59,068 nt of DNA from Rhodospirillales bacterium. GTDB lineage: Bacteria; Pseudomonadota; Alphaproteobacteria; Rhodospirillales; Defluviicoccaceae. The translations under genes were made by a program, and so were the position numbers. Below the pieces are notes generated by a model. It saw only the letters and a list, made by a program, of their open reading frames with translations. It had not been told where the DNA came from and did not search any database. Numbering within the stretch: position 1 is the stretch's first letter; each line of letters begins with the position of its first letter. Location of the stretch: positions 1 through 59,068 of the forward strand of contig REEP01000023.1 in NCBI GenBank assembly GCA_007695045.1. The letters run 5' to 3'. Of the stretch, positions 26,396 through 55,273 are shown in pieces.

Positions 26396-27247
26396 GTGAC
26401 GATCCACCCGACGGCAAGCCTCGGCACCCGGGTGAGACTGGGGACCGACGTGTGTATCGGTGCCGGTGCCGTCGTCGAGGACGACGTCGTCCTGGAAGAC
26501 AGGGTGGCGATCGGCCCGCATGCCGTCGTCGGCCGCTTTACCACGGTCGGCGCCGGGTCGCGTATCGGGCTTGCTGCCCTGGTCGGGGGCGAGCCTCAGA
26601 TCGTCGGTTGGACCCCGGTGGACAGTTGCACTGTCATCGGCGCCGGCACCACGATCCGCGAGTATGTCTCGATCCATCGGGCCAAGGCGGCCGGCGACTC
26701 CACGGTGGTCGGTTCCGGCTGCTACCTCATGGCATCCAGCCATGTGGCCCATGATTGCCGCTTGGGGGAGGGGGTCACCCTGGTCAACGGCGCGCTGCTG
26801 GCTGGCCACGTGGAGGTGGGAGACCACGCCTTCATTTCCGGTAATTGCGTGGTACATCAGTTCGTGCGCATCGGCCGCCGTGCGATGGTGCGGGGGTTGA
26901 CGGCAGTCGGCAAGGACGTGGTGCCGTTCGTCATTGTCGATCAGACCAACGCCGTTCGCGGGCTCAACAAGGTCGGCCTCCGCCGGGCCGGCATGGCGCC
27001 GACGGTGATAAAGGCACTGGACCGCCTGTTCCGGGATCTGTTCCGTTCCTCCAGACCCGTCCGGGATGCTCTGGCAGCCATCGAAGACGGTCCGATGATC
27101 GACGAGGTCCGGGAGGTCGTAGCATTCGTCCGCGCCAGCAAACGCGGGATCTGCTCAACCTATTCCAGCCCGGCCCGGCGCATGCAAAGCCAAGCTGGGC
27201 CGACCTCCGAGACCGGCCATCCCGGGCCGGACGATGACGGCCACTGA
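26396..27247 (+). CDS. lpxA: Orphan acyl-ACP-UDP-GlcNAc O-acyltransferase (LpxA-like)
   Basis: 283 aa from GTG 26396 (a GTG at 26390 is an alternative; the long in-frame extension upstream is the antisense of the SMR gene). The N-terminal 190 residues are a left-handed beta-helix of hexapeptide repeats. LpxA signatures: TIREYVSIHRAK, HVAHDC (catalytic His equivalent to E. coli His125), NGALLAGHVEVGDHAFISG, VHQFVRIG, NAVRGLNKVGLRR and the helical tail. It should add the first acyl chain to UDP-GlcNAc for lipid A. It stands alone: lpxD, fabZ and lpxB, usual neighbours, are absent. The last 30 residues are unusual and low complexity. A second copy may exist in the genome. Confidence 0.85.
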   Translation: MTIHPTASLGTRVRLGTDVCIGAGAVVEDDVVLEDRVAIGPHAVVGRFTTVGAGSRIGLAALVGGEPQIVGWTPVDSCTVIGAGTTIREYVSIHRAKAAGDSTVVGSGCYLMASSHVAHDCRLGEGVTLVNGALLAGHVEVGDHAFISGNCVVHQFVRIGRRAMVRGLTAVGKDVVPFVIVDQTNAVRGLNKVGLRRAGMAPTVIKALDRLFRDLFRSSRPVRDALAAIEDGPMIDEVREVVAFVRASKRGICSTYSSPARRMQSQAGPTSETGHPGPDDDGH

Positions 27248-31261: not shown

Positions 31262-32284
31262 ATGTCCGCCCTGAGGTTGTCCAACTGGAACATCGAATGG
31301 ATGAATGACTGGTTCGTCCCGATCCGGGAGGGGGCGCCGGCTTGGCGCACCAGCAATCCCGGTCGCGGCATTGGGGACGTGCCGGCCTTGGCTGCACGGG
31401 TGGCGCAGGTGATCCGGCAACTCGACCCCGACGTGCTGACCATCCAGGAGGGGCCGAGCCGCGCGGGCGAGATGCAACTTTTCGTCGACGATCATCTCGA
31501 AGGACGGTTCGAGATCTTCGGGCCCACCGGTCGGGGCAGCCAGCGCCTTTATGTCCTGGTGCGGACGGACCGGTCCGTGGAGACAGCGGCACGGGTATGG
31601 CCGGAGGGTGACCGCATCGACTTCGATGCCGCCTGGCCGGTGGATGTGACCGGCGATCTGATCATCGAAGGCTACGAGTTCACGCGGCCACCGCTGGAGA
31701 TCGCGATCACGGTGAACGGTCGCAAAGTCACCGTCGTTAATCTGCACACCAAGTCCAAGTACATCCATGGTGGTCGCCGTCTCTACCAAGATCCCGCCAC
31801 ACGCTCCCAATACATCGCCCAGGCAGTGCGCAACCGCCGCCGGATCGCCGCCGAGTTGATGCGCATTCGGAACCATCTGGATGCAATCCTGACCGACGAT
31901 CCCGAGTCCCGGATCATTGTCGCCGGTGACCTTAACGATGGCCCCGGCGTGGATTTTTTTGAGCAGCATTACCTGATCCACAATGTGGTCAGTGTGGTCT
32001 CCGGCAGTGCGTTCGCGCCCCGGCGCATGCTTCGGCATGCGTTCATCGATCGTGAGCTGAAAGAGCGCAACTTCACCTCCCGCTTCGACGACTTCATCGA
32101 CAACATTGCGGACCGGCCGCTGCTTCTGGACCATATCCTGCTGTCGCCGGGTCTCTACTGGTCTGGGCTCCGCAATGCCCGCATCGACCACGAGGCGTTC
32201 GATGCCGCGGTGGTGGCCGGAGCCAGTGGCCGCGAGGCGGCCCCCAGCGACCATCGTCCCCAGTCTGCCCAGTTCGAGCTGTGA
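31262..32284 (+). CDS. Endonuclease/exonuclease/phosphatase (EEP) family protein
   Basis: 340 aa. DNase I-like fold: LRLSNWNIEWMND (metal-binding Asn/Glu, residues 4-16), IQEGPSR (about 60-66), VVNLHTKSKY (about 157-166), VAGDLNDGPG (about 220-229, catalytic Asp/Asn) and the C-terminal SDHRPQSAQF (catalytic Asp-His). All catalytic residues are there. No signal peptide is evident, so it is likely cytoplasmic. EEP proteins cleave DNA, RNA or phosphoesters of lipids and sugars; the substrate cannot be told. It stands alone between ssb and the sugar locus. Confidence 0.87.
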   Translation: MSALRLSNWNIEWMNDWFVPIREGAPAWRTSNPGRGIGDVPALAARVAQVIRQLDPDVLTIQEGPSRAGEMQLFVDDHLEGRFEIFGPTGRGSQRLYVLVRTDRSVETAARVWPEGDRIDFDAAWPVDVTGDLIIEGYEFTRPPLEIAITVNGRKVTVVNLHTKSKYIHGGRRLYQDPATRSQYIAQAVRNRRRIAAELMRIRNHLDAILTDDPESRIIVAGDLNDGPGVDFFEQHYLIHNVVSVVSGSAFAPRRMLRHAFIDRELKERNFTSRFDDFIDNIADRPLLLDHILLSPGLYWSGLRNARIDHEAFDAAVVAGASGREAAPSDHRPQSAQFEL

Positions 32285-32422
32285 GCCGCCAATGCAGCAC
32301 TCTTGGGTTGTGTCAAGGGCATGCTTTGGTCGTTGTGATCGGGATGATCATGCGTTAAGGCATGGCGGCAGGCGGGGGGCGCGGCCACGTGCGCTCGGGG
32401 GCGATCGATCGGCGGGCAAGCC

Positions 32423-33523
32423 ATGCAAAAGACGGTGATTGTAACCGGTGGGGCTGGGTTCATCGGATCGGCGGTCTGTCGATATTTTATCGCCGAGACC
32501 GACTACACCGTCGTCAACGTCGATTGCCTGACCTACGCCGGTAACCTGGAGTCGCTGGCGCCGGTTGCCGGTTCCGACCGCCACCACTTCGAACGACTGG
32601 ATATCCGCCACGGCGACGGCTTGGCACGGGTCTTTCGCACCTATCGGCCGAGCGCCGTCATGCATCTGGCCGCGGAGTCCCATGTGGACCGGTCGATCAC
32701 GGGACCCGCTGCCTTCGTCGAGACCAATGTGCTCGGCACGTGCACGCTGCTTCAGGTGGCCCGGCGGTATTGGTCGGAACTGGAGGGACGATCGCGGACA
32801 GCTTTCAGATTCCATCACGTCTCCACGGACGAGGTGTTCGGCTCCCTAGGCGATGCCGGGTATTTCACCGAAGCAACCGCGTATCAGCCCAATTCTCCCT
32901 ATGCCGCGAGCAAGGCGGGCTCGGACCATCTGGTCCGCGCCTGGCATCACACCTACGGCTTGCCGGTGGTGACCAGCAACTGCTCCAACAACTACGGACC
33001 GTACCAGTTTCCCGAAAAACTGATCCCGCACATGATTCTCACCGCACTGGACGGAAAGCCGCTGCCGGTCTATGGCGATGGCGCCAACGTGCGCGACTGG
33101 CTGTTCGTTGACGACCACGTCCGCGCCCTGCATCTGATCCTGGAACAGGGGCGGGTGGGCCAGACCTACAATGTCGGCGGCCGCAACGAGGTGCGCAACA
33201 TCGAGGTCGTGGAAGCGCTTTGCGATCTGTTGGACGAACTCCGGCCCGACCGACTCCGGGCGGTGCAACCGGCCCTCGCCAGCTATCGGGATCTGATCAC
33301 CTACGTCGCCGATCGCCCGGGCCATGACCGTCGCTACGCGATCGACCCGCACAAGGTCATGTCTGAACTGGGGTGGATGCCGCAAGAGTCGTTTGCCACC
33401 GGCCTGCGCAAGACCGTCGACTGGTACCTGAAGAATGCCGCCTGGTGGCAACGTGTTCTGTCCGGCGCCTACACGCTGGAGCGGATCGGCATCGCCGATG
33501 CTCCGGCGACGGCAAGTCCCTGA
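32423..33523 (+). CDS. rfbB: dTDP-glucose 4,6-dehydratase
   Basis: 366 aa. Extended SDR: NAD-binding TGGAGFIGS (8-16), STDEVFG (about 136-142), [10 protein letters not shown] with the catalytic Tyr and Lys (about 160-169), and the RmlB signature [18 protein letters not shown]. It converts dTDP-glucose (product of RfbA, encoded 5 kb downstream) to dTDP-4-keto-6-deoxyglucose, the branch point to rhamnose and to amino-dideoxy sugars. Rhamnose genes rfbC/rfbD are absent, while a WecE-type aminotransferase is present, so the amino-sugar branch is the likely use. First gene of the surface-sugar operon. Confidence 0.96.
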
Positions 33524-33533
33524 GGCCGGCGCG

Positions 33534-34529
33534 ATGGATTTCCCCGAGGCATCGCTGGCCACGACAGCCGCGCCCGGGCATCCGTCCGTTTCCGTCGTGG
33601 TGCCGGTGTACAATGGCGCCGCAACGCTGCCGGAACTGCTGGAACGGGTTCAGGCGACGCTCGCGCCCGTCACGACGGCATTCGAAGTGATCTTTGTCAA
33701 CGATGGCAGCCGCGATGACAGCTGGGCCGTGATCGAAGCCCTGGCAGCCCGTGAGCCGGCCGTGATCGGCCTCGACCTCATGCACAACTATGGTCAGCAC
33801 AACGCGCTGCTGGCCGGCATTCTCAGGTCCTCCCACGACGTCGTCGTCACCATGGATGACGACCTGCAGCATCCGCCGGAGGAGTTGCCGAAGCTGCTGG
33901 CGGCCATCGGCGAAGGGTACGATGTGGCTTACGGCAAGCCGGCCAGGCGGGAGCATTCGTCCTGGCGCAACGTGTCGTCACGACTGGCCAAGGGGGCTTT
34001 GCGGGTGGCGCTGGGCGCCGACATGGCGGAGAAAAGCAGCGCCTTCCGCGCTTTCCGTGCCGAATTGAAAAAAGGCTTCGCCGGCTTCACCGACGCCCGG
34101 GTGTCGGTGGACGTGCTGTTGTCATGGTCGGCCCGGTCGGTGGCCGGGGTGACGGTTGCGCATCACGCGCGCAAGCAGGGCCGGTCCGGATACAGCATGC
34201 GGAAGCTCTTGAGCCTCACCTTGAGCATGATGGTCGGCTACTCGACGTTGCCATTGCGCCTTGCCAGCGGTCTCGGCGTGGTGGCGGCGGCATTCGGGCT
34301 GGTGATCTTCATGGTCGTGGTGATCCAACGCTTGATCCAGGAAGCCTCCGTGCCCGGCTTCGCCTTTATTGCCGCTGCGGTTTCTCTGTTTGCCGGCCTG
34401 CAACTTTTCACCCTCGGCGTGATCGGAGAGTATCTGGCCCGGGTGCATTTCCGCACCATGGGTAAGCCTGCGTTCGTGGTGCGCTCGGAGACTTCAATGA
34501 ACAAGTTCACACGTGGTACCAACCCATGA
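33534..34529 (+). CDS. Membrane-bound GT2 glycosyltransferase, ArnC/GtrB/DPM1-like
   Basis: 331 aa from ATG 33534, 10 bp after rfbB. GT-A domain with SVVVPVYNGAATLPELLERV (19-38), VNDGSRDDSW (55-64), QHNALLAGI (88-96) and the metal-binding MDDDLQHPPEEL (107-118). Two transmembrane helices follow (about 232-260 and 268-298), the layout of enzymes that transfer a sugar from a nucleotide to undecaprenyl or dolichyl phosphate on the cytoplasmic face. In this locus it probably loads the dTDP-amino sugar on undecaprenyl phosphate. Its stop overlaps the ATP-grasp start as ATGA. Confidence 0.9.
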   Translation: MDFPEASLATTAAPGHPSVSVVVPVYNGAATLPELLERVQATLAPVTTAFEVIFVNDGSRDDSWAVIEALAAREPAVIGLDLMHNYGQHNALLAGILRSSHDVVVTMDDDLQHPPEELPKLLAAIGEGYDVAYGKPARREHSSWRNVSSRLAKGALRVALGADMAEKSSAFRAFRAELKKGFAGFTDARVSVDVLLSWSARSVAGVTVAHHARKQGRSGYSMRKLLSLTLSMMVGYSTLPLRLASGLGVVAAAFGLVIFMVVVIQRLIQEASVPGFAFIAAAVSLFAGLQLFTLGVIGEYLARVHFRTMGKPAFVVRSETSMNKFTRGTNP

Positions 34530-35644
34530 AGCGGGCACTGATCCTCGGAACCGGTGCAGCCCAGGTGGACGCCATTCGACACCTGAAGAAGCACGGCTGG
34601 TGGGTTGCCGGGTGCAGCTACCGGCGCGAAGGGCCCGGCTTGACTCTCGTTGACCGATTTCTCCTGATCGACATCGCCGACGTCGACGGCCTGGCAACAG
34701 CCGCGCGGGAAAACGACGTTAACCTGATCTATTCCGTGGGCTCAGACTTGGCCATGCCCACCGTGGCTATGGTGGCGAAGCGGCTGGGGCTGGGGCGCCT
34801 GATTGAGCCGGAGACGGCTACTTTGCTCCAGGACAAGGCCCGGCTCCGCGATTTTCTGGCACGCCATCAGATCAGTCCGGTTGCCTACAGGGTCGTGTCC
34901 GATGCTGGCGACATCGATGGTTGGGACCATTTTCCGGCGATCATCAAGCCCACCGACAGCCAGGGGCAGCGCGGCGTCTTTCAGGTGGAAAGCCGGGCCG
35001 AGGCGAAAGAAAGATTATCGGCTGCCTTGGCGGCATCGCGCGGCGGCCAAGTGATCCTGGAGGAACGTCTCGACGGCCCTGAAGTCTCGGCCAACGTCTT
35101 TGTGCTCGACGGTCGGGTCGTGGTGAACGAGATCTCGGATCGGCTCGTGGTTGCCGATTTTCCGGGCGGTATCCCGCGCGGCCACGTCATTCCGGCACAG
35201 TCGGCGCCGGCGCCGGTGCTGGCTCAGGCCAGGGCGCTCGTCGAGCAGTGTGTCGGCGCGCTCGGCATCACCAATGGACCGGCTTACTTCCAGATGAAGC
35301 TGACGGTGTCCGGTCCGCGCATCATCGAGATCACTCCCAGACTGGACGGCTGTCATCTCTGGCGCTTGCTGCGGCACACCCACGGGGTTGACCTGCTGGA
35401 CGCAAGCTTCCGCATTTTGGCGGGGGAACCCGTGGCCGACGCGATCACGCCGCGGTCGCGGATCGAGGGGTGCAGCCTGATGTTCTTTTTGCAGCCACCG
35501 GGCGAGGTGTTTCAGCGGGCCGACCACCCGGCACCGGCGGAGGCCCTCCATACCGAGTACTATCTCGATGACGGCCAAGTGGTGCCGCCGGTCAACGGGT
35601 ATCTGGAAAAGGTGGGTTACACCATTTGCCGTGGCCAGCCGTGA
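34526..35644 (+). CDS. ATP-grasp ligase of a surface-sugar locus
   Basis: 372 aa. Pre-ATP-grasp Rossmann-like domain (about 1-95; ALILGTGAAQVDAIRHLKK) then ATP-grasp: Lys141 in PAIIKPTDSQGQRGV, the EE pair 179-180 in VILEERLDG, and the metal-binding RIIEITPRLDG near 266-275. The fold is that of carbamoyl-phosphate synthase and D-Ala-D-Ala ligase relatives, which join a carboxylate to an amine through an acyl phosphate. It is coupled by 4-bp overlaps to the GT2 gene before and the SDR gene after. Since the locus makes a 4-amino sugar, it may acylate that amine with an amino or hydroxy acid (inference). Confidence 0.82.
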   Translation: MKRALILGTGAAQVDAIRHLKKHGWWVAGCSYRREGPGLTLVDRFLLIDIADVDGLATAARENDVNLIYSVGSDLAMPTVAMVAKRLGLGRLIEPETATLLQDKARLRDFLARHQISPVAYRVVSDAGDIDGWDHFPAIIKPTDSQGQRGVFQVESRAEAKERLSAALAASRGGQVILEERLDGPEVSANVFVLDGRVVVNEISDRLVVADFPGGIPRGHVIPAQSAPAPVLAQARALVEQCVGALGITNGPAYFQMKLTVSGPRIIEITPRLDGCHLWRLLRHTHGVDLLDASFRILAGEPVADAITPRSRIEGCSLMFFLQPPGEVFQRADHPAPAEALHTEYYLDDGQVVPPVNGYLEKVGYTICRGQP

Positions 35645-36564
35645 GAATCGCCATCACCGGTGCCGGCGGCATGATCGGCCGGGCGTGCGTTCGGCGGTTC
35701 GCGCGACGGGGCGACGAGGTCGTCGCCCTGTCCCGCACGCCGCTGGACTGGCGCACGGGGAGTACCGGGACACCCCGCGCGGTGGCCGGGCGCGTCACGG
35801 ACTACAGCACCGATGACCTCGCTTCGGCACTGCAGGGGGTCGATGCGGTGATCCACCTGGCGGCGATGCGGATGAGCGGCGAGGCCGACGCCATCGGGTT
35901 TCGCCCGTACCAGGAGGCCAATGTCCAGATCACCGAAAACATCTTGCGGGCATGTCTGGAGAGCGGCACGAGAAAGATTTGCCTGGCGTCTACGGTCGCG
36001 GTTTACTTCGGCGCAGGCCAGTCCCCCGTGACGGAGGCATTGCCGCCATGCCCCACGGGTTTCTACGGACTCAGTAAGCTGTGTTGTGAAAACCTTGCAT
36101 TTGTTTATGGCATCCGCTTTCCACTGAATGCAGTCTGCCTGAGGATCGCCCAGGTGATCGGGCTCGACGAAACGCGGACGGACAACATGCTGATGCGGTT
36201 CATGGCATTGGCGGCGCGCAGGCAGCCGTTGCCGCTGTGGGGGGAGGGGGCCGGTGCTCGCGATACGATCTATGTCGAAGACGTGGTCGAAGCGTTCGAG
36301 TGCGCGCTGGCGGCCGATGGCGTTTCCGGTGTATTCAACATTGGCGGTGGGTGTGCCGTCTCCAATCGTGAGGTCGCCGAAACCATCAACGAGGTCTTCG
36401 ACAACGTCGGCAACCTCACGTTCGATCGTACAAGGCGGGAGGACACGAGCAACCTGTTCATGGATTGCAGCCGCGCCGAACGCGAACTCGGCTGGCGTCG
36501 GCAGTGGAGCCTGCGCGCGGCTTTCGCCGATCTGAAACGTGACTTGGCATCAACGGCGCCATGA
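35641..36564 (+). CDS. NAD-dependent epimerase/dehydratase (extended SDR)
   Basis: 307 aa from a GTG at 35641 overlapping the previous stop (GTGA). NAD-binding ITGAGGMIG near residues 5-13, VIHLAAMR (about 77-84), STVAV and the YGLSKLCCE catalytic YxxxK (about 143-147). The GARDTIYVEDVVEAF and NIGGG segments match UDP-glucose 4-epimerase-like proteins. It could epimerise or reduce the nucleotide sugar or the lipid-linked sugar of this locus; the exact reaction is not evident. Its stop overlaps the start of the membrane protein gene. Confidence 0.85.
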   Translation: MRIAITGAGGMIGRACVRRFARRGDEVVALSRTPLDWRTGSTGTPRAVAGRVTDYSTDDLASALQGVDAVIHLAAMRMSGEADAIGFRPYQEANVQITENILRACLESGTRKICLASTVAVYFGAGQSPVTEALPPCPTGFYGLSKLCCENLAFVYGIRFPLNAVCLRIAQVIGLDETRTDNMLMRFMALAARRQPLPLWGEGAGARDTIYVEDVVEAFECALAADGVSGVFNIGGGCAVSNREVAETINEVFDNVGNLTFDRTRREDTSNLFMDCSRAERELGWRRQWSLRAAFADLKRDLASTAP

Positions 36565-37592
36565 CTTCAGCCGAAGCCCGAACCCGGCAGAGAGGCGCCG
36601 GGATGGATCGGCGGCGTCTGCTGGTTGCGTTGCAGATCATTGTCGCGCTCGCGGCTTCGGTCTACGTCGTCTGGCTGATCGACTGGAGTGAAGCGGTCGC
36701 GGTGATGGCGGCGGCCGACCCGCGCTGGTTTCTTCTCGCGTTCATGCTTTCACTCATCGCGTTCATTCCCGCTGCGTTACGGTGGGTCGGGCTGCTACGT
36801 GGCATGGGCGTCGGTTACCGCCTCGTAAGCGGCTACTTGGCGTATTTGACCGGAACCTTCTATAGCCTCGCCATGCCGGGAGTGATTGGTGGCGACGCAG
36901 CCCGCATCTGGCTGTGCCGGCGAGAGACCGGTGCACGCCTGTGGTTGATCGCGGCCTCGGTGCTGACGGAACGGGCGCTGGGCGTGGCCGCCTTGTTGGT
37001 GGTACTCAGTATTGGGCTCGGATTGTTTCCCGCCGCATCCCGTGTTTGGGTGACCGAAGCTGCGCCATTTCTTGCGGTAAGCGTGCTTCTCGGTGTGGCC
37101 GGCTTTCCGTGGCTGCTGCGTCGGCTCGAAACGGCGGCGCTGCCGTCGGGGTATGGCGGGGCGGGTGCCGTTATCAGGCGAGCGGGGACGTGGCTCCTGC
37201 AACGGCTGGCGCCGGTCAAGGACCTCGGCATCGGGCCGATTGCGATCGCGTTGAGCCTGTCGCTCGGCTTCCAACTCCTCGATATCGCCGTCACCTTCGC
37301 GATCGGTCAGGCGCTTGGCCTTGATCTCAATATGATGGTTCTGTTTGTCGCCATGCCGATTGTCTACCTGGCCACCGTTCTGCCGGTATCGCCCGGCGGA
37401 CTGGGCGTTCGGGAGGCCGCCCTGGTGGTGGTCCTGTCGCAGTTCGGTATCGCGGCGGCGGATGCCGCCCTGCTCGCCCTTGCGGTATTCCTGAATCGTG
37501 TCGCCGTCGGCTGTGTCGGCGCCGTGCAGCACATGGCGGGCGGGGTGAGGCTTTCGCGTGAGATGAGAACGATGAGACGCGAGGATGGTTGA
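36561..37592 (+). CDS. Flippase-like membrane protein (LPG synthase TM/UPF0104 family)
   Basis: 343 aa. After a short cytosolic start there are about eight transmembrane helices. The family signatures are visible: RWVGLLRGMG, the LAYLTGTFYSLAMPGVIGGDAARIW segment (about 92-116) and PVSPGGLGVREAALV (about 275-290). The domain is found in MprF (lysyl-PG synthase and flippase) and in AglD-like proteins of glycosylation loci. It may move a lipid-linked sugar across the membrane or act on it. Coupled by overlap to the SDR gene; the next gene follows at 82 bp. Confidence 0.85.
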   Translation: MTSAEARTRQRGAGMDRRRLLVALQIIVALAASVYVVWLIDWSEAVAVMAAADPRWFLLAFMLSLIAFIPAALRWVGLLRGMGVGYRLVSGYLAYLTGTFYSLAMPGVIGGDAARIWLCRRETGARLWLIAASVLTERALGVAALLVVLSIGLGLFPAASRVWVTEAAPFLAVSVLLGVAGFPWLLRRLETAALPSGYGGAGAVIRRAGTWLLQRLAPVKDLGIGPIAIALSLSLGFQLLDIAVTFAIGQALGLDLNMMVLFVAMPIVYLATVLPVSPGGLGVREAALVVVLSQFGIAAADAALLALAVFLNRVAVGCVGAVQHMAGGVRLSREMRTMRREDG

Positions 37593-37674
37593 CGCGGATG
37601 GCCACAACGTCGCCACAAAACGCGCCATGATACGGCCAGCCGAAGGGCAGGGGGACGGCAACGCGGCGGACCGG

Positions 37675-38847
37675 ATGACCATCCCCTTCAACAAGCCGTA
37701 CCTTACGGGCCGGGAGGGTGAGTACATCACCGATGCCCTGGCCCGCGGTCATCTTTCGGGCGACGGGAACTACACGCGGCGGTGCCAAGCCTGGCTGGAA
37801 ACGCGCACCGGGGCGGCCAAAGTCCTGCTCACCCACTCCTGCACCGCGGCGCTGGAAATGGCCGCCATGCTTGCGGACATCGGGCCGGGGGACGAGGTCA
37901 TCCTGCCATCGTACACGTTCGTGTCCACCGCCAACGCGTTCGTGCTGCGCGGCGCCGTGCCCGTGTTCGTGGACATCCGTCCCGATACCCTGAACCTGGA
38001 CGAAAGCCGGATCGAGGCGGCGGTGACCCCGCGTACCCGGGCGATCGTGCCGGTCCACTATGCCGGCGTCGGGTGCGACATGGATCCGATCATGGCGATC
38101 GCGGAACGGCATGGCCTGATCGTGATCGAGGATGCCGCCCAGGGCTTGATGGCGACGTACCGGGGTCGGGGCCTGGGGAGTATCGGCCACCTCGGCACCC
38201 TGTCCTTCCACGAGACCAAGAACATCATCTCTGGCGAAGGCGGGGCGTTACTGATCAACGACCCGGCTCTGGCGCACCGGGCGGAAATCATCCGCGAAAA
38301 GGGCACCAACCGCAGTGCCTTCTTCCGCGGCGCGGTGGACAAGTATACCTGGGTGGATCTCGGCTCGTCCTACCTGCCGGCGGAGATCGTGGCCGCATTC
38401 CTGTGGGCGCAGCTGGAGGAGGCCGAGGCGATCACCCGGCGGCGCCTCGACATCTGGTCCCACTATCACGGCCGTCTCGAAGCGGCCGAGAGGGCAGGGC
38501 TCCTTCGCCGACCCGTCGTCCCCGAAGGGTGCGGCCACAATGCCCACATGTATTACCTGCTGCTGGCCGATCTGGGCCGCCGCACCCGCTTCATCGCCAG
38601 CCTCAAGCAGCAGGATATTCAAGCCACCTTCCATTACGTGCCGCTGGACAGCGCCCCCATGGGCCGGCGGGCGGGGCGCGCGGCCGGGGACCTGACGCAC
38701 ACTCGTGATTTGGCCGATCGGCTGGTCCGGCTGCCGCTCTGGGCAGGCCTGGAACCGCACCAGCAGCGGGTGGCGGCCGCGATCGACACCGCACTGGCCG
38801 GGCTCGACGCCGGGTCGGCAGACACAACCGCAATGGGGCTGACATGA
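37675..38847 (+). CDS. wecE: dTDP-4-amino-4,6-dideoxygalactose transaminase (WecE/RffA type)
   Basis: 390 aa from ATG 37675, where similarity to E. coli WecE begins (IPFNKPYL); an upstream in-frame ATG at 37585 overlaps the previous stop and is possible. DegT/DnrJ/EryC1 fold with Lys182 in SFHETKNI forming the PLP aldimine, and [50 protein letters not shown] and [13 protein letters not shown] shared with WecE. It converts dTDP-4-keto-6-deoxyglucose plus glutamate to dTDP-4-amino-4,6-dideoxygalactose (dTDP-Fuc4N). The acetyltransferase WecD is absent, so the amine is left free or modified by another enzyme. Stop overlaps rfbA start. Confidence 0.93.
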
Positions 38848-39731
38848 AGGGTATCGTTCTGGCGGGTGGCAGCGGCACCCGCCTCTATCCCCTGACTCGG
38901 GTGGTGAGCAAGCAGCTGCTGCCGGTCTATGACAAGCCGATGATCTACTATCCGCTGTCCACGCTGATGATGGCCGGAATTCGGGAGATCCTGATCATCA
39001 GCACGCCCCAGGATATTCCGCGCTTTCGCGACCTGTTGGGCGATGGCAGCCGGTGGGGGCTCGCGCTCGCCTATGCCGAGCAACCCAGTCCCGACGGCAT
39101 TGCCCAGGCCTTCCTGATCGGTGAGCGGTTCATTGGGGGAGCCCCGGTCGCACTCATTCTCGGCGACAACATCTTCTATGGCCAGCAACTGGGCCTGGAT
39201 CTGCAACGGGCGGCGGGCTTCGACCATGGTGCCACGGTGTTCGGCTACCACGTGAGCGATCCCGAGCGGTACGGCGTGGTCGCCTTCGATGCGGACGGGC
39301 GCCCGGCGGCGCTGGTGGAAAAGCCCAAGGACCCGCCCTCCAGCGTCGCCATCACCGGCCTGTACTTCTATGACAACACGGTGGTCGACATTTGCAAGGC
39401 CCTGAAGCCGTCCGGGCGCGGGGAGCTGGAGATCACGGACGTGAATGCCCGTTACCTGGAGGACGGACGGCTGCGGGTGACCATCCTCGGGCGCGGCACC
39501 GCGTGGCTGGACACCGGGACTCACGAGGCACTGCTGCGGGCTTCCAATTTCATCGAGGTGATTGCCGAACGGCAGGGCCTTAAGATCGCCTGCCCGGAGG
39601 AGGTGGCCTGGCGGATGGGCTTCATCGACGATACCGAGCTGGAGGCCCTGGCCAAGCCCCTGCTCAAAAGCGGTTATGGCGAATATCTCCTGGGTCTGCT
39701 GCGCAGCGGCAAGACCTGGCGAGGGCGATAG
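38844..39731 (+). CDS. rfbA: Glucose-1-phosphate thymidylyltransferase
   Basis: 295 aa, the standard length. Nucleotidyltransferase motif [11 protein letters not shown] (8-18), [12 protein letters not shown] (about 31-42), ILGDNIFYG (about 107-115), [19 protein letters not shown] and the [12 protein letters not shown] segment, all characteristic of RmlA/RfbA. It makes dTDP-glucose from dTTP and glucose-1-phosphate and is the first committed step for the sugar of this locus. Last tightly coupled gene of the operon; base composition falls sharply after its stop. Confidence 0.96.
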
Positions 39732-39893
39732 GGCGGCGGGCGAGTCATAATCAATAATGTTGGATCTTTTTAAAATGGAACTGAAATAAGTAATTGACAG
39801 AGATGGTTTTGTCCATTTTTCCATCTTATGGAGTTCGATTGTTTTTGCTCTATCTATTAATGTTTTTATAACACTATGGAAGTGCGTTATATA
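39732..39893 (+). promoter_or_regulatory. AT-rich leader before the membrane glycosyltransferase gene
   Basis: About 70% A+T. A TTGACA hexamer lies near 39793 and T-rich runs follow, but no well-spaced -10 could be chosen with confidence. The segment has the same composition as the gene that follows, so gene and promoter probably arrived together. Confidence 0.4.
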
Positions 39894-41537
39894 ATGAAAA
39901 TTTTTCGGCAGAATTTTTGCATAGGCGCACAACGCCTCCGAGCTCCAGTCGATAGTTTATTCTCTGGGGGTGGGGCGCATAACATACTTTCATTTATTGC
40001 TGCAATATTTTCTCTTGTTGTGCTAGTGTTATTGATATCGCATGTTTTGCTGAGGCCTGAGAATCATGATGAACAGCTTTTTCTGACGACAGGGATTTTG
40101 TGGTCGCAGTTTCATGTTTACCGAGATCTACAATTCGGCCATCTCCCAAACCATCCGTTTTTTATCCACGTGATATTGCAAGCAACATCTTCAGAAAAGA
40201 TCATGCTGACGGGCCGTCTGACCCAAATTGGTATGTGGATTGCGTTGGTAGGGATTGTTATCGTTTTTGCTAAGCGCTTTTCTGGCAGCATTCTAGTCGG
40301 CTTGACGGCGGCTATATTGTTAATGGTGAGTCCAGTTATAACTAAACCTGGATCATATACGTCAAATAATTTGCTCCCTATCATATTTTTATTGTTAGGA
40401 GCCTATGCTCTTCTTGTAGCAATCCAAGAAGAATATCGCTCGCGAGTTGCCCTTTTTGCGGCTGGTGCACTTTTTGCGCTCGCCATGGGCTCGAAGGCAA
40501 ACTATATATTCGGCGTAATTGCGCCGACAATTATAATTATTTTTGCAGCGCTTCGGCGGCCGTTGGGTCATCATGTTTTAAATATACTTTTTCCCTTTGC
40601 GGTCGGCGGGATCATGGGAGGGCTACCGAGCCTCTACTTTTTCATCACAGATCCAGAAATTTTCTGGAGAAGCGTCACTGGCGGCGCCAATCCTGACACG
40701 TTACAAGGTTCACTAGAGGTGGCGACGGATCGGGGTGCAGATTTCGCAGGTCAGTTGCTTTACGGGCGACATCTTTGGTTCGAAGGAGTTGAGTTGCTAA
40801 TATTTGTTTCACTCGTCATTGCGTCCTCGGCTTTTATTTATAGATTTAGGATTGAAACTAAAAATAGAGATATAAAATTTTTGGTGCACGGCATTTTATT
40901 TCTCGTGCTGATGTTAATCGGATCGTTTATCGTACCGTTTCTGATCAAGCCGTCTCATGTGCAGTATTTCCAGCCGCCAATAGTTATTTCGGTCGTTTGT
41001 GCCATATTCATATTTGGGCGTTTTCGCGCTGATACTCGACGCGCAGCTGCCCCGGTCGTTTTCGCCGTTGCCGTGGTGGCGTTCGCAGCAGTACCGACAC
41101 ATTTCTTGGCAGGGTTTCCGTTGCGCACCATTGATAGCTCGCAGTGGACCGGTTCTGTCTTTCATCAAGCGTCACACCGGTTTGCGGAAGAATTACAGAA
41201 TGCGGGCTTGTCTGGCAAGATTACAGTTGCCACGCTGGCACCGATTGTGCCGCTCGAAGCTGGCTTGTCCATATATCCAGAACTTGCTGCTGGACCGTTC
41301 AAGTATCGAACTGCTGACTTTCTTCCCGAGGCGGAGCGTGTGCGGCTAAACAGGGTCTCTGTTAGCACGATGCCCGCATTTCTATCCCAAAAGAGGCCCG
41401 ATGCAATTCTCGTTGGTGTTGCAAACGATCCGGCGCTTGAGATACCATTCATTGAGTTTGCAGAGCAAGCGGGATATATTAGGCGCGATCTTGGTCCCCG
41501 CCCGGGTGGTGTGTTGTATATTCGGCCATATTTTTGA
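39894..41537 (+). CDS. GT-C type membrane glycosyltransferase, AT-rich, apparently acquired
   Basis: 547 aa from ATG 39894 (GGAAG 11 nt upstream; ATG 39876 in frame is the alternative). About ten transmembrane helices. After the first helix comes the loop PENHDEQLFLTTG with an acidic DE pair, the place of the catalytic Asp in GT-C enzymes (PMT/ArnT-like), followed by HPFFIHVIL. The C-terminal 130 residues are hydrophilic and probably periplasmic. GC is about 42% against about 66% around it, with A/T-ending codons, indicating transfer from another lineage. It most likely transfers the lipid-linked sugar of this locus to an acceptor outside the inner membrane (inference). Confidence 0.72.
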   Translation: MKIFRQNFCIGAQRLRAPVDSLFSGGGAHNILSFIAAIFSLVVLVLLISHVLLRPENHDEQLFLTTGILWSQFHVYRDLQFGHLPNHPFFIHVILQATSSEKIMLTGRLTQIGMWIALVGIVIVFAKRFSGSILVGLTAAILLMVSPVITKPGSYTSNNLLPIIFLLLGAYALLVAIQEEYRSRVALFAAGALFALAMGSKANYIFGVIAPTIIIIFAALRRPLGHHVLNILFPFAVGGIMGGLPSLYFFITDPEIFWRSVTGGANPDTLQGSLEVATDRGADFAGQLLYGRHLWFEGVELLIFVSLVIASSAFIYRFRIETKNRDIKFLVHGILFLVLMLIGSFIVPFLIKPSHVQYFQPPIVISVVCAIFIFGRFRADTRRAAAPVVFAVAVVAFAAVPTHFLAGFPLRTIDSSQWTGSVFHQASHRFAEELQNAGLSGKITVATLAPIVPLEAGLSIYPELAAGPFKYRTADFLPEAERVRLNRVSVSTMPAFLSQKRPDAILVGVANDPALEIPFIEFAEQAGYIRRDLGPRPGGVLYIRPYF

Positions 41538-42078
41538 CGATCTCGGGCGATTTAATCGGCGTGAGCCGGCGTTGTCTCCAATGGCGGCCTGCAGTTGCTG
41601 GCACGATTACTCTTTACCTGGGGGAGTACCGCGTTCGCATCTCCCGCTTCAGGGTCTTGCCAGTGACGTTGCGGGAAGTTCGTCATAGAACACTGCGTCG
41701 TGCAGCCGCAGCAACCTAAGCAGTGCCTCGATGCCACATTGTTTCGCTCGGTGGCTTGCGGATGATGGCGCTTCTTGTTCGGGGGCGCCTCATGGATCGT
41801 TTGCCAAATAAGTTGCCAGGTAGTGTGCAGAACACCCGTCGAGGCGCGGCGTTGCCTTCGGCGGAGCGGCGACGGCAGCGGAGCTGGGAAGGCAAGGCCT
41901 GGCCTGGGCAGCTTGCCAGGTGAAGCGCGTCGGGTTTGCCGGAGATTAATTGTCGGGCACCTCGAAAAATCTTTCGGCTTGGTCGAGTCGTAAGCGATGG
42001 TCCAATGGCACCGGTTGTTCGCTTGCTTGTCTTGGGTGGATATGATGGCGGTGGATGTGATGGCGCCGCCGCACCGGC
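41538..42078. other. 541-bp spacer without a recognised gene; imperfect tandem repeat
   Basis: No supported gene. GC rises again from left to right. GGTGGATATGATGGC (42035-42049) and GGTGGATGTGATGGC (42050-42064) form an imperfect direct tandem repeat just before the truncated transposase. The missing 3' part of that transposase is not found here. Confidence 0.55.
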
Positions 42079-42939
42079 TCAGGGCCGGGCGATGCAGCGG
42101 GCGCGATGGGGCTGGCCGCCGAGCGGGGGACTGTCGGCGGTGTTGCCGCCCATGACCTCATAGGCCAGCGGGAAGCCTTCCGGCGTGACAATCAGGGCGA
42201 TCACCACCTGCACACAGTCGGGCCGTTTGTCCCGGCTGTAGCCGAACTGGCGTTTGCCTGCACCCGGCGGGTCGCTCTCGAAATAGGTGCTGGTCAGATC
42301 ATAGAGGAGGACGTCGAAGCGCGCCCAGAACAGCGCCTGCCAGCGCGCCTTCAGCGCCGCGAAGAAATCTTCCTTGTGGGCCAGCACCTTGTCGAGACAG
42401 CGATAGAGCGTATCGGCCTTGGCCACGGCGAAATCCTCGCCCAGCAGATCGACCATCGCACTTGCGTCGAACCAATGGCGGTGCAGCCGCCACTCGCTGC
42501 CGGGGTCGAGCAGGCGGTAAAACACCAGCGTCTTCAGAACATTGAGCCAGCGCGTGCCCTTGCGGCTGATGGGCAACCGCGGCGTCCAGAAGGCGTCGAG
42601 TTCCAGCTGATCCCACAGCACCGAGGCCAGCCAGCACCCGCCCCATTGCCGCGGCCGATGCAGCTGCAGATCGCCAAGGCGGATCTGCACCAGCTCGTGC
42701 TCGCTGGCCGGCACCGCAGCCCCGTCCGCAAACAGCGCCAGCTGCTTCGGGCGGCTCTGCCCGTCGGCGAACACGTCGACCGTCCGCTGCCAAGCGGCTT
42801 GCTGGCCGTCGTTGATCTCGCCCAGATACAGCACCTGACGCTGAACCGTGCGGTTGCCGCGCACCCGCCGGTTTTCGACGAGGCTCCAGTAGCGGTGCGT
42901 CTTGCCGTCCTTGCGGCGGGTTCGGGAGCGCAGGAACAT
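42079..42939 (-). pseudogene. 3'-truncated IS1634/IS4-type transposase
   Basis: About 286 aa from ATG 42939 (MFLRSRTRRKDGKTHRYWSLVENRR). The sequence matches the N-terminal half of DDE transposases of the IS1634 group (usually 500-600 aa): the YLGEIND segment, then the first catalytic-Asp region LLYDLTSTYFES and GYSRDKRPDCVQV, ending in FPLAYEVMGGNTAD. After that the frame reads unrelated residues to a stop at 42079, so the second Asp and the Glu of the triad are missing. It cannot transpose. It marks an old insertion and deletion at the left edge of the defence island. No terminal inverted repeats could be assigned. Confidence 0.85.
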
Positions 42940-43661
42940 GGCCGAACCTTCCGGTCCGACCACCCGCCAGTCAACCGGGTGGGTCGGCACCGCACGGCCA
43001 TTTCGCCCCGATCCCCCAGCGAAAACCGCAGAAATCCGTCATCCCGTGCCGCTCAAAATCGGCGATTTTGCCGAAACCGCCGGCGAATAGCGGAAGTCGG
43101 CTTAGGGTACCCAGAAACGTAGGTGAATACCTGGGTCACAAATCACAGGCCTGCCAAATTCTGTTTTATTTCAGTCACATGGATTGCCTTAATGGCGGAG
43201 GGCAAAGACCCTTGCGCCAACTCGCTCTTCGCAATCGCGCGTGAGCGCCGCGCACGCACGAGAAATGATGAGAAGAGGTCCCCTGCCACAAGGGTTTCGC
43301 TTCTACTGCCTTCCGCTCGCCTACGCTCTTGGATACTCGGTCTCTACAGCCTGGCCGAGTAGATCGCCACAGCCGAGCAGATCAACCCTTCCTGCATCCA
43401 CCCAGCCCCTGCAGATGACCCTACTGGCGCCAGAGATCGTCGAAGCGATGATCTGCGGCCCCGGTAGCCGGCGAAATGACGCTGGCGGGCTGACAAAGCC
43501 TTTGCCGCCAAGCCGGCAGGAGCCAAGCATAGGCGCCTTCCGGTTGCTCGAAGGGCACCTTCCTCCATGACGGGACCCCATCCTTCGCATCTTCCGCTGC
43601 CACAGGCGGTTGCAAATTCGGCCATATTGGCCAAAACTGGCATGAAGCTCGGGGAACCTGG
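42940..43661. other. 722-bp region without a supported gene at the island border
   Basis: Contains the 5' flank of the broken transposase, a perfect 7-bp inverted repeat AAAATCG-G-CGATTTT (about 43051-43065), and then unremarkable mixed-GC sequence. Frames across it are antisense or short and show no family pattern. The right end carries the palindrome before the antitoxin gene. Confidence 0.55.
43620..43632. promoter_or_regulatory. Palindrome upstream of the antitoxin and defence operon
   Basis: GGCCA-TAT-TGGCC, extended on both sides by TT/AA with one mismatch, lies 29 bp before the Phd/YefM-like gene. Antitoxins of this family repress their own promoters through palindromes in this position, so it is a plausible operator. 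Another TTGGCCAAA/ACTGGC element overlaps its right arm. Confidence 0.42.
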
Positions 43662-43878: not shown

Positions 43879-46800
43879 ATGACGAAGGACGCACCTCCGC
43901 CGGGTGTCGGTCAGATCCTCACCGGTCCGCTCTTCAACGAGCCGATGCGGGTGGAGACGGTACAAGCCAACGGACCGGCCAGCTGGATTGTGGGGCTCGT
44001 GGGCACGAACTCCGAGCGGTTCCGCAAGGTGACGATGACCGCCGGCGATCTGGAGCGCCTCACCGTTCTGGAGCCGCAGCATTCCTTCAACGGTGACGGC
44101 CGGCTGCTCCGCCTTGGGCTTCAGTCCTACGCCCTGGGCATCGCTTATGAATTCGATCCCTATTTCGGCCTCTCGATATCGCGGGTCGATCCCCTGCCGC
44201 ATCAGCTCGAGGCGATCTACGACTATCTGCTCAAGCTCGCGCGCGTGCGCTTTCTGCTGGCCGACGATGCCGGCGCGGGCAAGACGATCATGTCGGGGCT
44301 CCTCATTCGCGAACTGGAGCTTCGCGGACTCGCCGAACGCATCCTGATCGTCTGCCCGGCCAACCTCGCCTTCCAATGGCAGCGCGAGCTGAAGGAGAAG
44401 TTCGACGCGAAGTTCCTGGTGATGAAGGGCCAGGACATCCGCGATCAGTTCGGCGTGAACCAGTGGCTGGAGCGCAATCGGCTGATCACGTCGCTCGATC
44501 TGGCAAAGCGGTCCGAAATCCTTCCCGGGTTGCGACAGGTTCACTGGGACCTCGTCATCGTCGACGAGGCGCACCGAATGTCGGCCGCCGACGAATCGCA
44601 CAAGAGCCTGCGTTACCGGCTGGGCGAGCTGCTGCGGGACAGCTCGGATCACATCCTGTTGCTTACGGCGACGCCCCATAAGGGCGATCCGGTGAACTTC
44701 AGCCTATTCCTGCAACTCCTTGACGCCGACGCCTACGCCGACGTGAAGTCGATCCGGGAAGCAATGGACCGCCGGCGCGCACCCTTCTACCTGCGCCGCA
44801 CCAAGGAGGCGATGGTTTACTTCCCCGAGCGGCGGGCTGACGGATCGTGGGCAGCCGAGCCGATCTTCACCAAGCGTATTCCGCACACGGTGGACTTTCA
44901 GATCGACGGCGCCGAGTTCGACCTTTACCGCGACGTGACGCGCTTCGTGAAGCGCGAGAGCGCCCGCGCCGCGGCCGAGGGCGAGGATCCACGCGCCCGC
45001 GCGATCGGCTTCCTGATGTCCCTCTACCAGCGCAGGCTCGCGTCGAGCACCTACGCGATGCGCCGCTCGCTTGAAAATCGCGCGCGTCGGCTGGAGGAAG
45101 GCCTCAAGCGGGCGCAGGACCTCGCCCGCCAGGCGCCGCCGGATCTACCCGATCCGGAGGAACTGGAGGAGATGGAGGAGAGCGAGCGCGAGCGGCTGGA
45201 GGCGATGCTCGAGGCGATCACGCTGGCAGGCAGCGCCGACCAAGTCCGGCAGGAGGTTCAGGAATTGCGCCGCCTAGCCGCCCAGGCGCAGTTGGTCGAA
45301 GAAGCCGGCACCGAAGCGAAGCTCTCGAAGTTCAAAGAGTTGCTGCAAAAGGAGGGCTTTTTCGATCATCCCGACCAGCGGCTGCTCCTATTCACGGAAT
45401 TCAAAGACACGCTGGACTACCTCGTTGACCGGCTGAAATCCTGGGGCTTCCGCGTCGGCTGCATCCATGGCGGCATGAAATCGGGTTCGCGCGACGAGCC
45501 GGGCACGCGCCTTCATGCCGAGCAGCAGTTCCGCGAAGGCGCCATCCAGATTCTGGTTGCCACCGAGGCCGCCGGCGAGGGCATCAACCTTCAGGTCTGC
45601 AACATCCTCTTCAACTACGACATCCCCTGGAATCCGAACCGCCTGGAACAGCGGATGGGGCGTATCCACCGCTACGGCCAGCGCAAGGACTGCCTGATCT
45701 TCAATTTCGTCGCGACCAACACCATCGAGGGCCGCGTCCTGCAGCGTTTGCTGGAGAAGCTGCAGGAGATTCGCGACGCGCTGGAGGACGACGCCGTCTT
45801 CAACGTAGTGGGCGAGGTCCTGCCTGCAGCCCACGTCGAGCGCATCCTGCGCGACTACTACGCTGGCCGTCTGGGCGACGCCGATCTCGAAGATCGTCTG
45901 CTCCGCAACGTGGACGAGGGCCAGTTCCGCGCCATCTGCCAAAACGCGCTTGAGGGGCTTGCGAGCAAGAAGCTCAATCTCGAAATGCTGATCGAACGAC
46001 GCGCGCGGGCGCAGGAGCGCCGCGTTGTGCCCGAGACCATCGCCCGCTTCCTGCGGGAGGCGGCCGACTTCGTGCCGTTCACGCTCAAGCCCGTGCCGAG
46101 CCTGCCGCACACCTTCGAGCCGGCACGCACGCCCTCGGTGCTCCGTCGCTACGAGAAGGAAGCGGACTGGAAGCTCCCGGCTCTCTCGGACCGCTACCCG
46201 CGCTGCTCGACCGACCGCGATACGGCCGAGACGGAGAAATTAGAGTGGGTCACGCCCGGCCATCCGCTGTTCGAGGCTATCCGGCGGCACACCCACGCCC
46301 AGGCATTGGACGTCCTCGGCAAGGGCGCGACCTTCTATTCGTTGCAGCACGAGCACCCGGCCCGCGTCGATTTCTACCGTGCCCGGGTCGTGGACGGGCT
46401 GGGGCAGGTCATCCATGAGCGCCTTTTCGCGGTGGAGATTGCCGAGGATGGCACGCCCCGGCTCCAGGAGCCTGGGCTGCTCGGCAACTTCGCCCCTGCC
46501 GACCCGCCGGCCGAGATGCCGACGGTCGCGAGCCACCCTGAGGTAGCGAGCTGGCTCCACGAGCATGCGCTCGCGCCGTTCCTCGAAGAGACGCGCAAGG
46601 ACCGCCTCACCGAGGTTGAGCGGGTCAGCGCGCACGTCGAATTGTCGCTCACTGAACTGCTCCAGCGGGCCGACGAGGAGATCGGCCGTGCGGCCGCCGA
46701 CGTCGAACAGAAGCTCCCCGGCTCAGAAGGCCGACTAGCGCAGGCCGAGACGCGCCACGCCGATTTGCTCGCTCGTCGCGACCGCCGCAGGACCGACCTC

Positions 46801-50300: not shown

Positions 50301-50348
50301 GAAGAGAAGCGCCTGCTCGACGCGATGCTTCTCGCGGTGCCGCGATGA
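47316..50348 (+). CDS. DUF1156 adenine-specific DNA methylase with Zn-ribbon (COG1743 type)
   Basis: 1,010 aa. The N-terminal DUF1156 region holds SLHLWWARRPLASSRAVLLG-like residues (38-56, THLWWARRPLASSR in essence), SAM-binding DPFAGGGSIPLEALR (136-150) and ASDLNPVACL. Cys pairs at about 225-230 (CESPNC) and 290-293 (CVCC) look like a zinc ribbon. The catalytic motif DPPYY is at 534-538, which marks an N6-adenine (or N4-cytosine) methylase. An acidic linker (about 810-830) and a C-terminal helical domain complete the protein. It should methylate adenines in a defined sequence; COG1743 methylases occur beside DUF499 ATPases in many genomes. GC drops to about 50% in 48440-49330 while both ends are about 66%. 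Confidence 0.88.
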   Translation: MIPKDCKRLAEVDFPIAAVSRHAAREKSIRHGHPSTLHLWWARRPLASSRAVLLGLLWPDPCDPLCPTEFKEQARKLLRQVAGCNPGTTDEDLRKALLRFIADFANWDLASNRTYLDVSRALVNAAHGEEPPLVVDPFAGGGSIPLEALRVGCEAFASDLNPVACLILKVMLEDIPRHGPKLAEELRRVGAEIKKQAESELADLYPKEPVNATPIAYLWARTVRCESPNCGAEIPLMRSFWLSKKASRKRALRYRIERSKDAPSRIEFELFEPKTEKDVPGGTVTRAKATCVCCRTVLPPDRVRAQLAAQRGGADVVFDAKGRRTGGARMLAVVMLKPGEQGRHYRLATERDYDAVRKAQARAARILDEWERGGKQSLCPVPSESLPDRNTLGLRVPNYGVKSWVDLFSQRQNYSLASLVGLARAGGFKEEHIRRLLALAISRTADYCSANCSLHVGRDVVRNTWARNALPIVWDFYEINPIGGGSGDFSGAVEWIARVVEHVSILGGNNGSAEQADAVESPLPSQSSSVWFTDPPYYSAIGYAESSDFFYVWLKRALDDSAFGNPFEPKSPVTPKTREIIQDDTFEAVYSIRKDAAFFEGKMSKAFAEGRRVTREDGVASIVFAHKTTEGWEALIAAILKAGWTVTGSWPIQTEMENKVSGSQAGDKKAMLLASVHLICRPRPDDAPIGDWADVLRELPKRVGDWMEHLQSEGVRGADLVFACIGPALEIFSRYAKVETADGREVKLDEYLEKVWEVVGRSALGQVLGTAEARARNGAAGAVEEDARLTALFLWTLQSTNGEAVKNGNDDSEDEEPADDEEDEEGASRGKTKGFTLVFDVVRRFAQPLGIELPKWDGRVIETKKGVVRLLPIAERAKQLFGEDGGQAVATRLELGTTAGANPLQGMLFPEMEADPKVRGRAARGKSGRLAVDISDESLTAAREATTLDRVHAAMLLQAGGRTNALRALLKAEQERSPDFLRLANALSALYPRGSEEKRLLDAMLLAVPR

Positions 50349-51142: not shown

Positions 51143-51144
51143 GA

Positions 51145-55271: not shown

Positions 55272-55273
55272 CC

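Follow-up and report, generated by a model that had tools for sequence, protein, structure and literature searches.

A gene island in a Rhodospirillales bacterium likely encodes a three-component glycosylation system with its own supply of an N-modified amino sugar

Three kinds of described systems come close to the locus presented here, a cluster of eight plus-strand genes (hereafter, the island) within a 59,068-nucleotide stretch of a Rhodospirillales genome, which we call the window. The Arn pathway of E. coli (arnBCADTEF), which handles 4-amino-4-deoxy-L-arabinose (L-Ara4N), is the first; the second is the dTDP-Fuc4NAc branch of the enterobacterial common antigen (ECA), with RffG, RffH, WecD and WecE. 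In three-component glycosylation systems, such as GtrA/GtrB/Gtr, a polyprenyl-phosphate transferase is found together with a flippase-family protein and a GT-C-like protein; for ribofuranose, the available text of PMC11127046 outlines a scheme made of a polyprenyl phosphoribose synthase, a MATE flippase and a GT-C enzyme. The island shares these three protein types and differs in that its donor, a dTDP-4-amino-4,6-dideoxyhexose, would be made within the operon, in the presence of an additional ATP-grasp ligase and short-chain dehydrogenase/reductase (SDR), and in that the candidate flippase belongs to the LPG_synthase_TM (LPG_TM) family rather than to GtrA/SMR or MATE. We consider it likely that the island is a three-component glycosylation system which also makes its own donor, with an N-modified amino sugar and an LPG_TM flippase candidate, and that it is mobile or at least strain-variable, a judgement that covers the explanation as a whole. 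It would probably be a known kind of system in a new combination of WecE-type donor, ATP-grasp/SDR pair and LPG_TM flippase candidate.

Seven of the eight genes are tightly packed (32423-39731), in the 5' to 3' order rmlB, ArnC-type family 2 glycosyltransferase (GT2), ATP-grasp, GalE-like SDR, LPG_synthase_TM, wecE and rmlA, with rmlB and rmlA bracketing the set; the eighth, encoding a GT-C-like protein, follows at 39876-41537 (Table 1). Overlaps of 4 bases were found at four gene pairs (GT2/ATP-grasp, ATP-grasp/SDR, SDR/LPG_TM and WecE/RmlA), which suggests that the seven-gene set could form an operon. The rmlB and GT2 genes are separated by 10 bases, and the SDR gene starts with a GTG at 35641, in its overlap with the ATP-grasp stop. 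The wecE start lies 82 bases past the LPG_TM stop, provided that the homology-supported start at 37675, where the WecE profile match begins, is correct. A promoter and terminator scan of positions 32200-42100 was uninformative (4 promoter-like signals versus 2.7 expected, 7 terminator-like versus 10.1 expected).

The donor-supply genes could be assigned to their families by profile. WecE passed two NCBIfam profiles (PRK11706, 604.4 bits, cut-off 375; TIGR02379, 595.2 bits, cut-off 434.85) and fell below the ArnB profile PRK11658 (206 bits, cut-off 631); its identity was 60% to E. coli WecE versus 37% to ArnB. RmlB matched TIGR01181 with 475.9 bits (cut-off 365) and is 62% identical to E. coli RffG, and RmlA matched TIGR01207 with 475 bits (cut-off 361). 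Following the established chemistry of these families, RmlA and RmlB would yield dTDP-4-keto-6-deoxyglucose, and WecE would aminate its C4 to give a dTDP-4-amino-4,6-dideoxyhexose. Homology suggests the galacto stereochemistry for this product, i.e. most likely 4-amino-4,6-dideoxygalactose (Fuc4N). Given the ATP-grasp ligase and the SDR in the operon, the final sugar is probably other than bare Fuc4N, and the donor is probably an N-modified dTDP-4-amino-4,6-dideoxyhexose made within the same operon. Altogether, RmlB, RmlA and WecE share 60-64% identity with their counterparts in the E. coli ECA branch; the operon differs from that branch in carrying an ArnC-type GT2 instead of WecD/WecF/WzxE/WzyE. 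The profiles of WecD, WecF, WzxE and WzyE found no match within the window. An ECA-type use was rejected on the lack of WecF, WzxE and WzyE matches there, and the 80 WecE loci surveyed below gave one weak WecF match (L047, 47.9 bits).

The closest solved proteins of the GT2 were ArnC (E 1.7e-49), GtrB (E 8.5e-35) and DPMS (E 2e-20), and pairwise comparison gave 31.8% identity and 177 bits with ArnC, and 25.5% and 134 bits with the GtrB protein YfdH. The ArnC equivalog profile was its best-scoring family, yet with 198.8 bits against a cut-off of 529. By homology the protein, which has two hydrophobic segments near the C-terminus, is a polyprenyl-phosphate glycosyltransferase of the GtrB/ArnC/DPMS type, and we class it as ArnC-type and not as ArnC itself.

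The ATP-grasp protein matched Pfam ATP-grasp_4 (34.4 bits, cut-off 27), and its nearest solved relatives were 4dim and the L-amino acid ligase 3vot. In an alignment of 31 sequences including that of the window, K104 (30/30), K141 (30/30), E179 (31/31), E268 (29/31) and R272 (31/31) were conserved; these residues match the motif of ATP-grasp carboxylate-amine ligases, namely ATP-binding lysines and an E...R pair for metal and phosphate. The enzyme probably forms an amide on the 4-amine of the sugar. Among 25 neighbourhoods of ATP-grasp relatives, some of them short and six weaker ATP-grasp matches being excluded, 15 contained a DegT/WecE-profile match of at least 200 bits, three an ArnC-type GT2 only (183-315 bits) and seven neither. 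Among the matches in 40 relatives and in overlapping samples of 385 genomes of the class and 398 of the phylum, no ATP-grasp relative outside the own genome exceeded 31% identity. The SDR resembles sugar-nucleotide epimerases (Pfam Epimerase, 137 bits; best solved relative 3m2p).

Two other arrangements were observed around ATP-grasp genes. In L108, L110, L111, L113 and L121, distant relatives lie a few kb from genes for other DegT-type aminotransferases and SDRs, possibly in nonulosonic acid clusters. In L163, L164 and L166 ATP-grasp genes adjoin genes for an ArnC-type GT2, a hexapeptide protein and an SMR protein, a second arrangement in the family of Methylotuvimicrobium buryatense.

The LPG_TM protein, with about 8 hydrophobic segments, passed both LPG_synthase_TM (PF03706, 139.7 bits, cut-off 33.4) and TIGR00374 (70.5 bits, cut-off 43.2), and is therefore a flippase-family membrane protein linked to the other genes. 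It is a probable flippase of sugars linked to undecaprenyl phosphate (Und-P), its gene occupying the place directly before wecE that SMR or GtrA genes most often take among recognised neighbours. The available text of PMC5898192 argues, from MprF and AglD, that the UPF0104/PF03706 family flips, and that of PMC12713373 presents the UPF0104 protein of gpgSDF as a predicted flippase of unverified activity. In the literature consulted on the family, as far as its available text goes, no test of a UPF0104/LPG_TM protein as Und-P-sugar flippase was found.

Taken in order, the modification of the dTDP-4-amino-4,6-dideoxyhexose would be carried out by the ATP-grasp ligase, perhaps with the SDR, most likely as an amide on the 4-amino group. 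In the Arn pathway the amine is formylated before ArnC acts, so a modification of the amine ahead of the GT2 step would fit. The ArnC-type GT2 would then transfer the modified sugar to Und-P, the LPG_TM protein would flip the Und-P-sugar to the periplasm, and a GT-C enzyme, most simply that encoded at 39876-41537, would pass the sugar to an envelope acceptor, which could be an O-chain, another glycan, a protein or lipid A. Homology is the ground for each predicted reaction, and the proposals on N-modification, flipping and acceptor reach beyond it; as predictions, Und-P loading, flipping and GT-C transfer are well supported.

A sister module was found in M. buryatense 5G, where the order is rmlA (63% identity), GT2 (65%), GNAT, ATP-grasp (55%), SDR (52%), LPG_TM (53%), wecE (71%) and GT-C. 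Six genes are common to the two loci at 52-71% identity, and GT2, ATP-grasp, SDR, LPG_TM and wecE stand in the same order. The M. buryatense locus differs in the extra GNAT gene, in rmlA standing at the front, in having no separate rmlB in the stretch examined, and in its GT-C, which lies directly downstream of wecE and belongs to another family, present in 9 of 80 WecE loci. Since the donor genes are shared and the GT-C family is another one, the donor part appears to be kept while the last transferase swaps, as in the known three-component systems, where likewise the donor module is constant and the GT-C differs; the window and M. buryatense are the two examples here. The GNAT protein is 22% identical to WecD (E 1e-4), and a search for its counterpart in the window's own genome, run with no positive control, found none. 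The ATP-grasp protein of this module had, besides itself, no relative above 31% identity in a set of 201 genomes from the M. buryatense family.

To place the layout in a broader frame, we surveyed the neighbourhoods of WecE relatives in a GTDB genome scan, which confirmed at least 576 relatives; the best 80 were kept, and all the counts refer to these nearest relatives. After leaving out 16 loci with less than 6 kb upstream, 64 remained. An ArnC-type GT2 was encoded upstream of wecE, on the same strand and within 8.5 kb, in 50 of them, and E. coli ArnC, used as an independent query from outside those loci, retrieved the identical 50 plus one on the opposite strand. Downstream of wecE, on either strand, the GT2 was found in 3/64; when only the 52 loci with 8.5 kb available in each direction were considered, same-strand GT2 genes were upstream in 42 and downstream in one. 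Exactly one recognised flippase type was present in 43 of the 50 GT2 loci (SMR in 26, GtrA in 16 and LPG_TM in one, that of M. buryatense), and no locus had two types. Candidate N-modifiers were recognised in 46 of the 50: one GNAT type alone in 14, another GNAT alone in 7, WbqC with or without a hexapeptide protein in 21, and ATP-grasp, alone or with others, in 4. The gene directly before wecE, counted in 65 loci including the window, encoded SMR proteins (17), methyltransferases (11), GtrA (10), LPG_TM (2) or other recognised proteins (7). The survey suggests that many near relatives of this WecE could serve Und-P-linked monosaccharide donors, and not ECA or O-antigen.

A preliminary description of this DNA had read the locus as a dTDP-sugar pathway arranged like the Arn route. 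The four parts that it named, namely WecE, a GT2 with two transmembrane helices, a flippase-like protein and a GT-C protein, are indeed present where it placed them, as seen from profiles, solved relatives and hydrophobic segments, and the logic of the arrangement holds, as the layout recurs upstream of wecE in the survey. The Arn identity does not hold: the defining Arn parts are missing from the island and no ArnT was found by sequence. The island shares with Arn the aminotransferase superfamily, an ArnC-type GT2 and flippase-family and GT-C-like proteins; it differs in having a dTDP-hexose versus a UDP-pentose, WecE versus ArnB and LPG_TM versus ArnE/F. No ArnA formyltransferase domain and no polysaccharide deacetylase, as expected for the deformylase ArnD, were found by Pfam among the eight island proteins, and the SMR profile, which includes E. 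coli ArnE and ArnF, had no match in the window. ArnA sequence matches in the island were limited to RmlB (E 8e-10) and the SDR (E 0.004). A straightforward Arn pathway was rejected, as five of six Arn features (ArnA, ArnB, ArnC, ArnD and ArnE/F) were not found in the island. As for the sugar, described as dTDP-4-amino-4,6-dideoxygalactose, the WecE-type 4-amino sugar pathway is supported, while the bare Fuc4N is probably not the final form, the ATP-grasp and SDR genes having gone unlisted. The predicted change of surface charge cannot be derived from the gene set, the amine being more likely left modified: with no deformylase in the island, there is no reason to expect a gain in positive charge, except in the case that an amino acid is attached by the ATP-grasp enzyme.

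The GT-C-like protein has about 10 hydrophobic segments, and a DE pair at residues 65-66 is invariant in a 6-sequence alignment. Its sole Pfam match is PMT_2, with 26.0 bits, 0.1 under the cut-off of 26.1. AlphaFold gave a predicted local distance difference test (pLDDT) score of 46 from the single sequence, and of 56 with the 6-sequence alignment (predicted template modelling score 0.51), i.e. a model of low confidence. For this low-confidence model, Foldseek ranks 1-6 and VIA-align ranks 1-35 were all GT-C enzymes or complexes containing one (the translocon complex at VIA-align rank 5 is presumed to contain one), with weak fold matches to DPY19, ArnT, Pmt4 and OST. ArnT (5f15) was at Foldseek rank 2 (E 2.6e-3), with a VIA-align Z of 8.1 and a root-mean-square deviation (rmsd) of 6.0 over 383 residues; the top VIA-align matches of the same model were Pmt4 and Pmt1-Pmt2 (Z 10.7-11.7, rmsd 5.5-6.0, 302-315 residues).

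These comparisons bear on two explanations of the acceptor. In a true lipid A modification, the GT-C would be a functional ArnT decorating lipid A with the amino sugar, and the structural comparison with ArnT, which had been proposed as a check, did return that enzyme at the second Foldseek rank. Nevertheless, the model is a poor one, Pmt, OST and DPY19 fit it equally well or better, the sequence has no detectable similarity to E. coli ArnT (best E 0.40), the 6-sequence profile matched no solved chain at E up to 1, and the island has no ArnD. We judge this explanation very unlikely; lipid A is one acceptor option among several, and nothing favours it. Protein O-glycosylation, in which a PMT-like GT-C would put the amino sugar on secreted proteins, is an acceptor variant of the three-component explanation, and fits with the top VIA-align matches and with PMT_2 as the only Pfam match. 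The same low-confidence model and the score just below cut-off stand against it, and with 14 of the 52 downstream proteins matching PMT_2 (the set includes that of the window), the domain is no pointer to protein acceptors. This variant appears rather doubtful.

The source genome assembly (3.35 Mb, 138 contigs, the window being contig 85) is 97.6% complete, and its partial 16S gene (821 bases) had as best matches, in the collection searched, Skermanella and Azospirillum plasmid copies at about 89% identity, which places the organism among the Alphaproteobacteria, in the broader vicinity of these two genera. We compared the surroundings of the island with one congener genome (G001), where uvrA and ssb are 82-84% identical to those of the window. 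On the left, identity is 82% over the 222 bases (window 32069-32290) with which the match to the exonuclease gene ends. In the congener the end of this gene is followed by 76 bases and then by the end of a gene that we named AMP-dependent synthetase by eye from its translation, with no family search; part of it is kept in the window at 41626-41715 (87%). With both edges matched in the congener, everything between them in the window, a variable stretch of 9.3 kb, is taken up by the cluster and the GT-C gene. Most of the exonuclease gene has been lost from the congener itself, so that an insertion here and a deletion there are indistinguishable. Six other genomes from the family or order (G002, G005, G006, G007, G011 and G013) gave no match to the exonuclease or to island proteins within 7-12 kb around uvrA-ssb.

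The presence of the GT-C gene and the operon in the same variable stretch is the reason why we assign the GT-C to the pathway. This membership, which does not draw on homology to the sister module's GT-C, is the weakest link of the three-component explanation, and a series of observations weigh against the latter. The GT-C gene lies 144 bases beyond rmlA and its base composition is unlike that of the other genes (47.1% G+C, compared to 63-68% in the other seven). Compared by BLAST with the M. buryatense GT-C, it shows no convincing resemblance (best E 0.08). Around its relatives in the own genome and in two genomes of one other genus (G214 and G309), the other queries were unmatched within 17-20 kb; the relative in the own genome (L129, 8891-10606, contig 118) has 36% identity and 51% G+C, with the other queries unmatched within 20 kb. 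A fourth relative, on a short stretch (L143), has weak RmlA (42 bits) and RmlB (24 bits) matches nearby. To the same side belong the broad occurrence of PMT_2 mentioned above and several figures of the survey: most of its profiles were built from those same loci; an ArnC-type GT2 was absent upstream in 14 of the 64 loci; among the 50 GT2 loci, 7 had no recognised flippase type and 4 no recognised N-modifier; no recognised gene stood directly before wecE in 18 of 65 loci, and LPG_TM occupied that position only in the window and in M. buryatense among the loci examined. An open reading frame (ORF) of at least 400 amino acids followed soon after wecE in only 51 of the 80 loci, and was strongly polytopic in 29 of the 51. 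Lastly, the available text of PMC5532660 reports an exopolysaccharide locus that encodes WecE- and WbqC-domain proteins along with an RfbX/Wzx-type flippase, therefore WecE/WbqC genes, as reported there, are not confined to the GT2 layout.

The last point and the loci lacking an upstream GT2 would also suit an island that only supplies nucleotide sugar to genes elsewhere, which would make a conventional O-antigen, capsule or exopolysaccharide, with the GT2 as an ordinary assembly glycosyltransferase; RmlA, RmlB and WecE also feed ECA in the E. coli locus. We consider this unlikely, as the GT2 is of the ArnC/GtrB/DPMS type with its two C-terminal hydrophobic segments, a flippase-family gene lies within the operon, and 0/8 island proteins have a Pfam match marking Wzx, Wzy or an initiating sugar-phosphate transferase. 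A further explanation is that GT2 and LPG_TM make and flip a free glycolipid, based on polyprenyl phosphate or a phospholipid, which remains in the outer leaflet, and that the GT-C is unrelated. The deviating composition of the GT-C gene and its unlinked relatives agree with this, as does gpgSDF, presented in the available text of PMC12713373 as a transferase, a deacetylase and a predicted UPF0104 flippase for GlcN-phosphatidylglycerol. However, GpgS is there a GT4 protein versus the ArnC-type GT2 of the island, and both the M. buryatense GT-C gene directly after wecE and the polytopic proteins encoded after wecE in other loci speak for a linked GT-C. A free glycolipid seems to us highly improbable.

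Returning to the three-component explanation, a wider generalisation can be put forward tentatively, with more doubt than confidence: relatives of this WecE would make N-modified dTDP-4-amino-4,6-dideoxyhexoses, modified by interchangeable GNAT, WbqC/hexapeptide or ATP-grasp proteins, load them on Und-P by ArnC-type enzymes and rely on exchangeable carriers; here, ATP-grasp would add an amino acid and LPG_TM would flip. In titles and the beginnings of abstracts of the open-licence PubMed Central literature, the combination of WecE, ArnC-type GT2 and GT-C was not described. WecE is usually read as an ECA/O-antigen gene, and the annotation of such polysaccharide loci would change if many near relatives of this WecE served Und-P-linked donors instead. 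The module permits a genetic test of two activities, the flipping of Und-P sugars by UPF0104 proteins and the addition of amino acids by ATP-grasp enzymes to nucleotide- or lipid-linked amino sugars, the latter of which would settle the question of added positive charge at the surface.

Table 1. Features of the island and of its edges (positions in the window)
Feature	Position	Strand	Basis or remark
Variable stretch with whole cluster	32291..41625	.	9.3 kb, absent from congener G001
rmlB, dTDP-glucose 4,6-dehydratase	32423..33523	+	TIGR01181; identity to E. coli RffG
ArnC-type GT2, predicted Und-P sugar loader	33534..34529	+	Solved relatives ArnC, GtrB, DPMS; ATG at 33534
ATP-grasp ligase, predicted acylation or aminoacylation of the 4-amine	34526..35644	+	ATP-grasp_4; 4dim, 3vot
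NAD-dependent GalE-like SDR: epimerase, reductase or N-substituent maker	35641..36564	+	Epimerase; 3m2p
LPG_synthase_TM (UPF0104), predicted Und-P-sugar flippase	36561..37592	+	PF03706; directly before wecE
wecE, dTDP-4-keto-6-deoxyglucose 4-aminotransferase	37675..38847, ORF open from 37585	+	PRK11706, TIGR02379
rmlA, glucose-1-phosphate thymidylyltransferase	38844..39731	+	TIGR01207
GT-C-like membrane protein, candidate periplasmic transferase	39876..41537	+	PMT_2, DE pair, weak fold matches
AMP-dependent synthetase gene, 3'-end remnant, right edge of variable stretch	41626..41715	-	Match to G001

Outside the island, two weak matches (56 bits each) to the hexapeptide-protein profile were observed 6 kb upstream, at 26438-26700 on the plus strand, possibly an acyltransferase or nucleotidyltransferase domain. 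On the other side, an Hma-type defence system lies just downstream at 43879-53907 (PADLOC: HmaA 574, HmaB 375 and HmaC 318 bits), with an extra ORF of 265 amino acids (50345-51142) between HmaB and HmaC that had no Pfam or PADLOC match at 1e-3. Between the island and these defence genes, a minus-strand ORF (42079-42990) resembles by eye a cut transposase and had no Pfam match at 1e-3. The Hma system is followed by a SIR2 and HerA pair at 54012-57199 (370 and 504 bits, PADLOC), which places the amino-sugar island close to a defence island.

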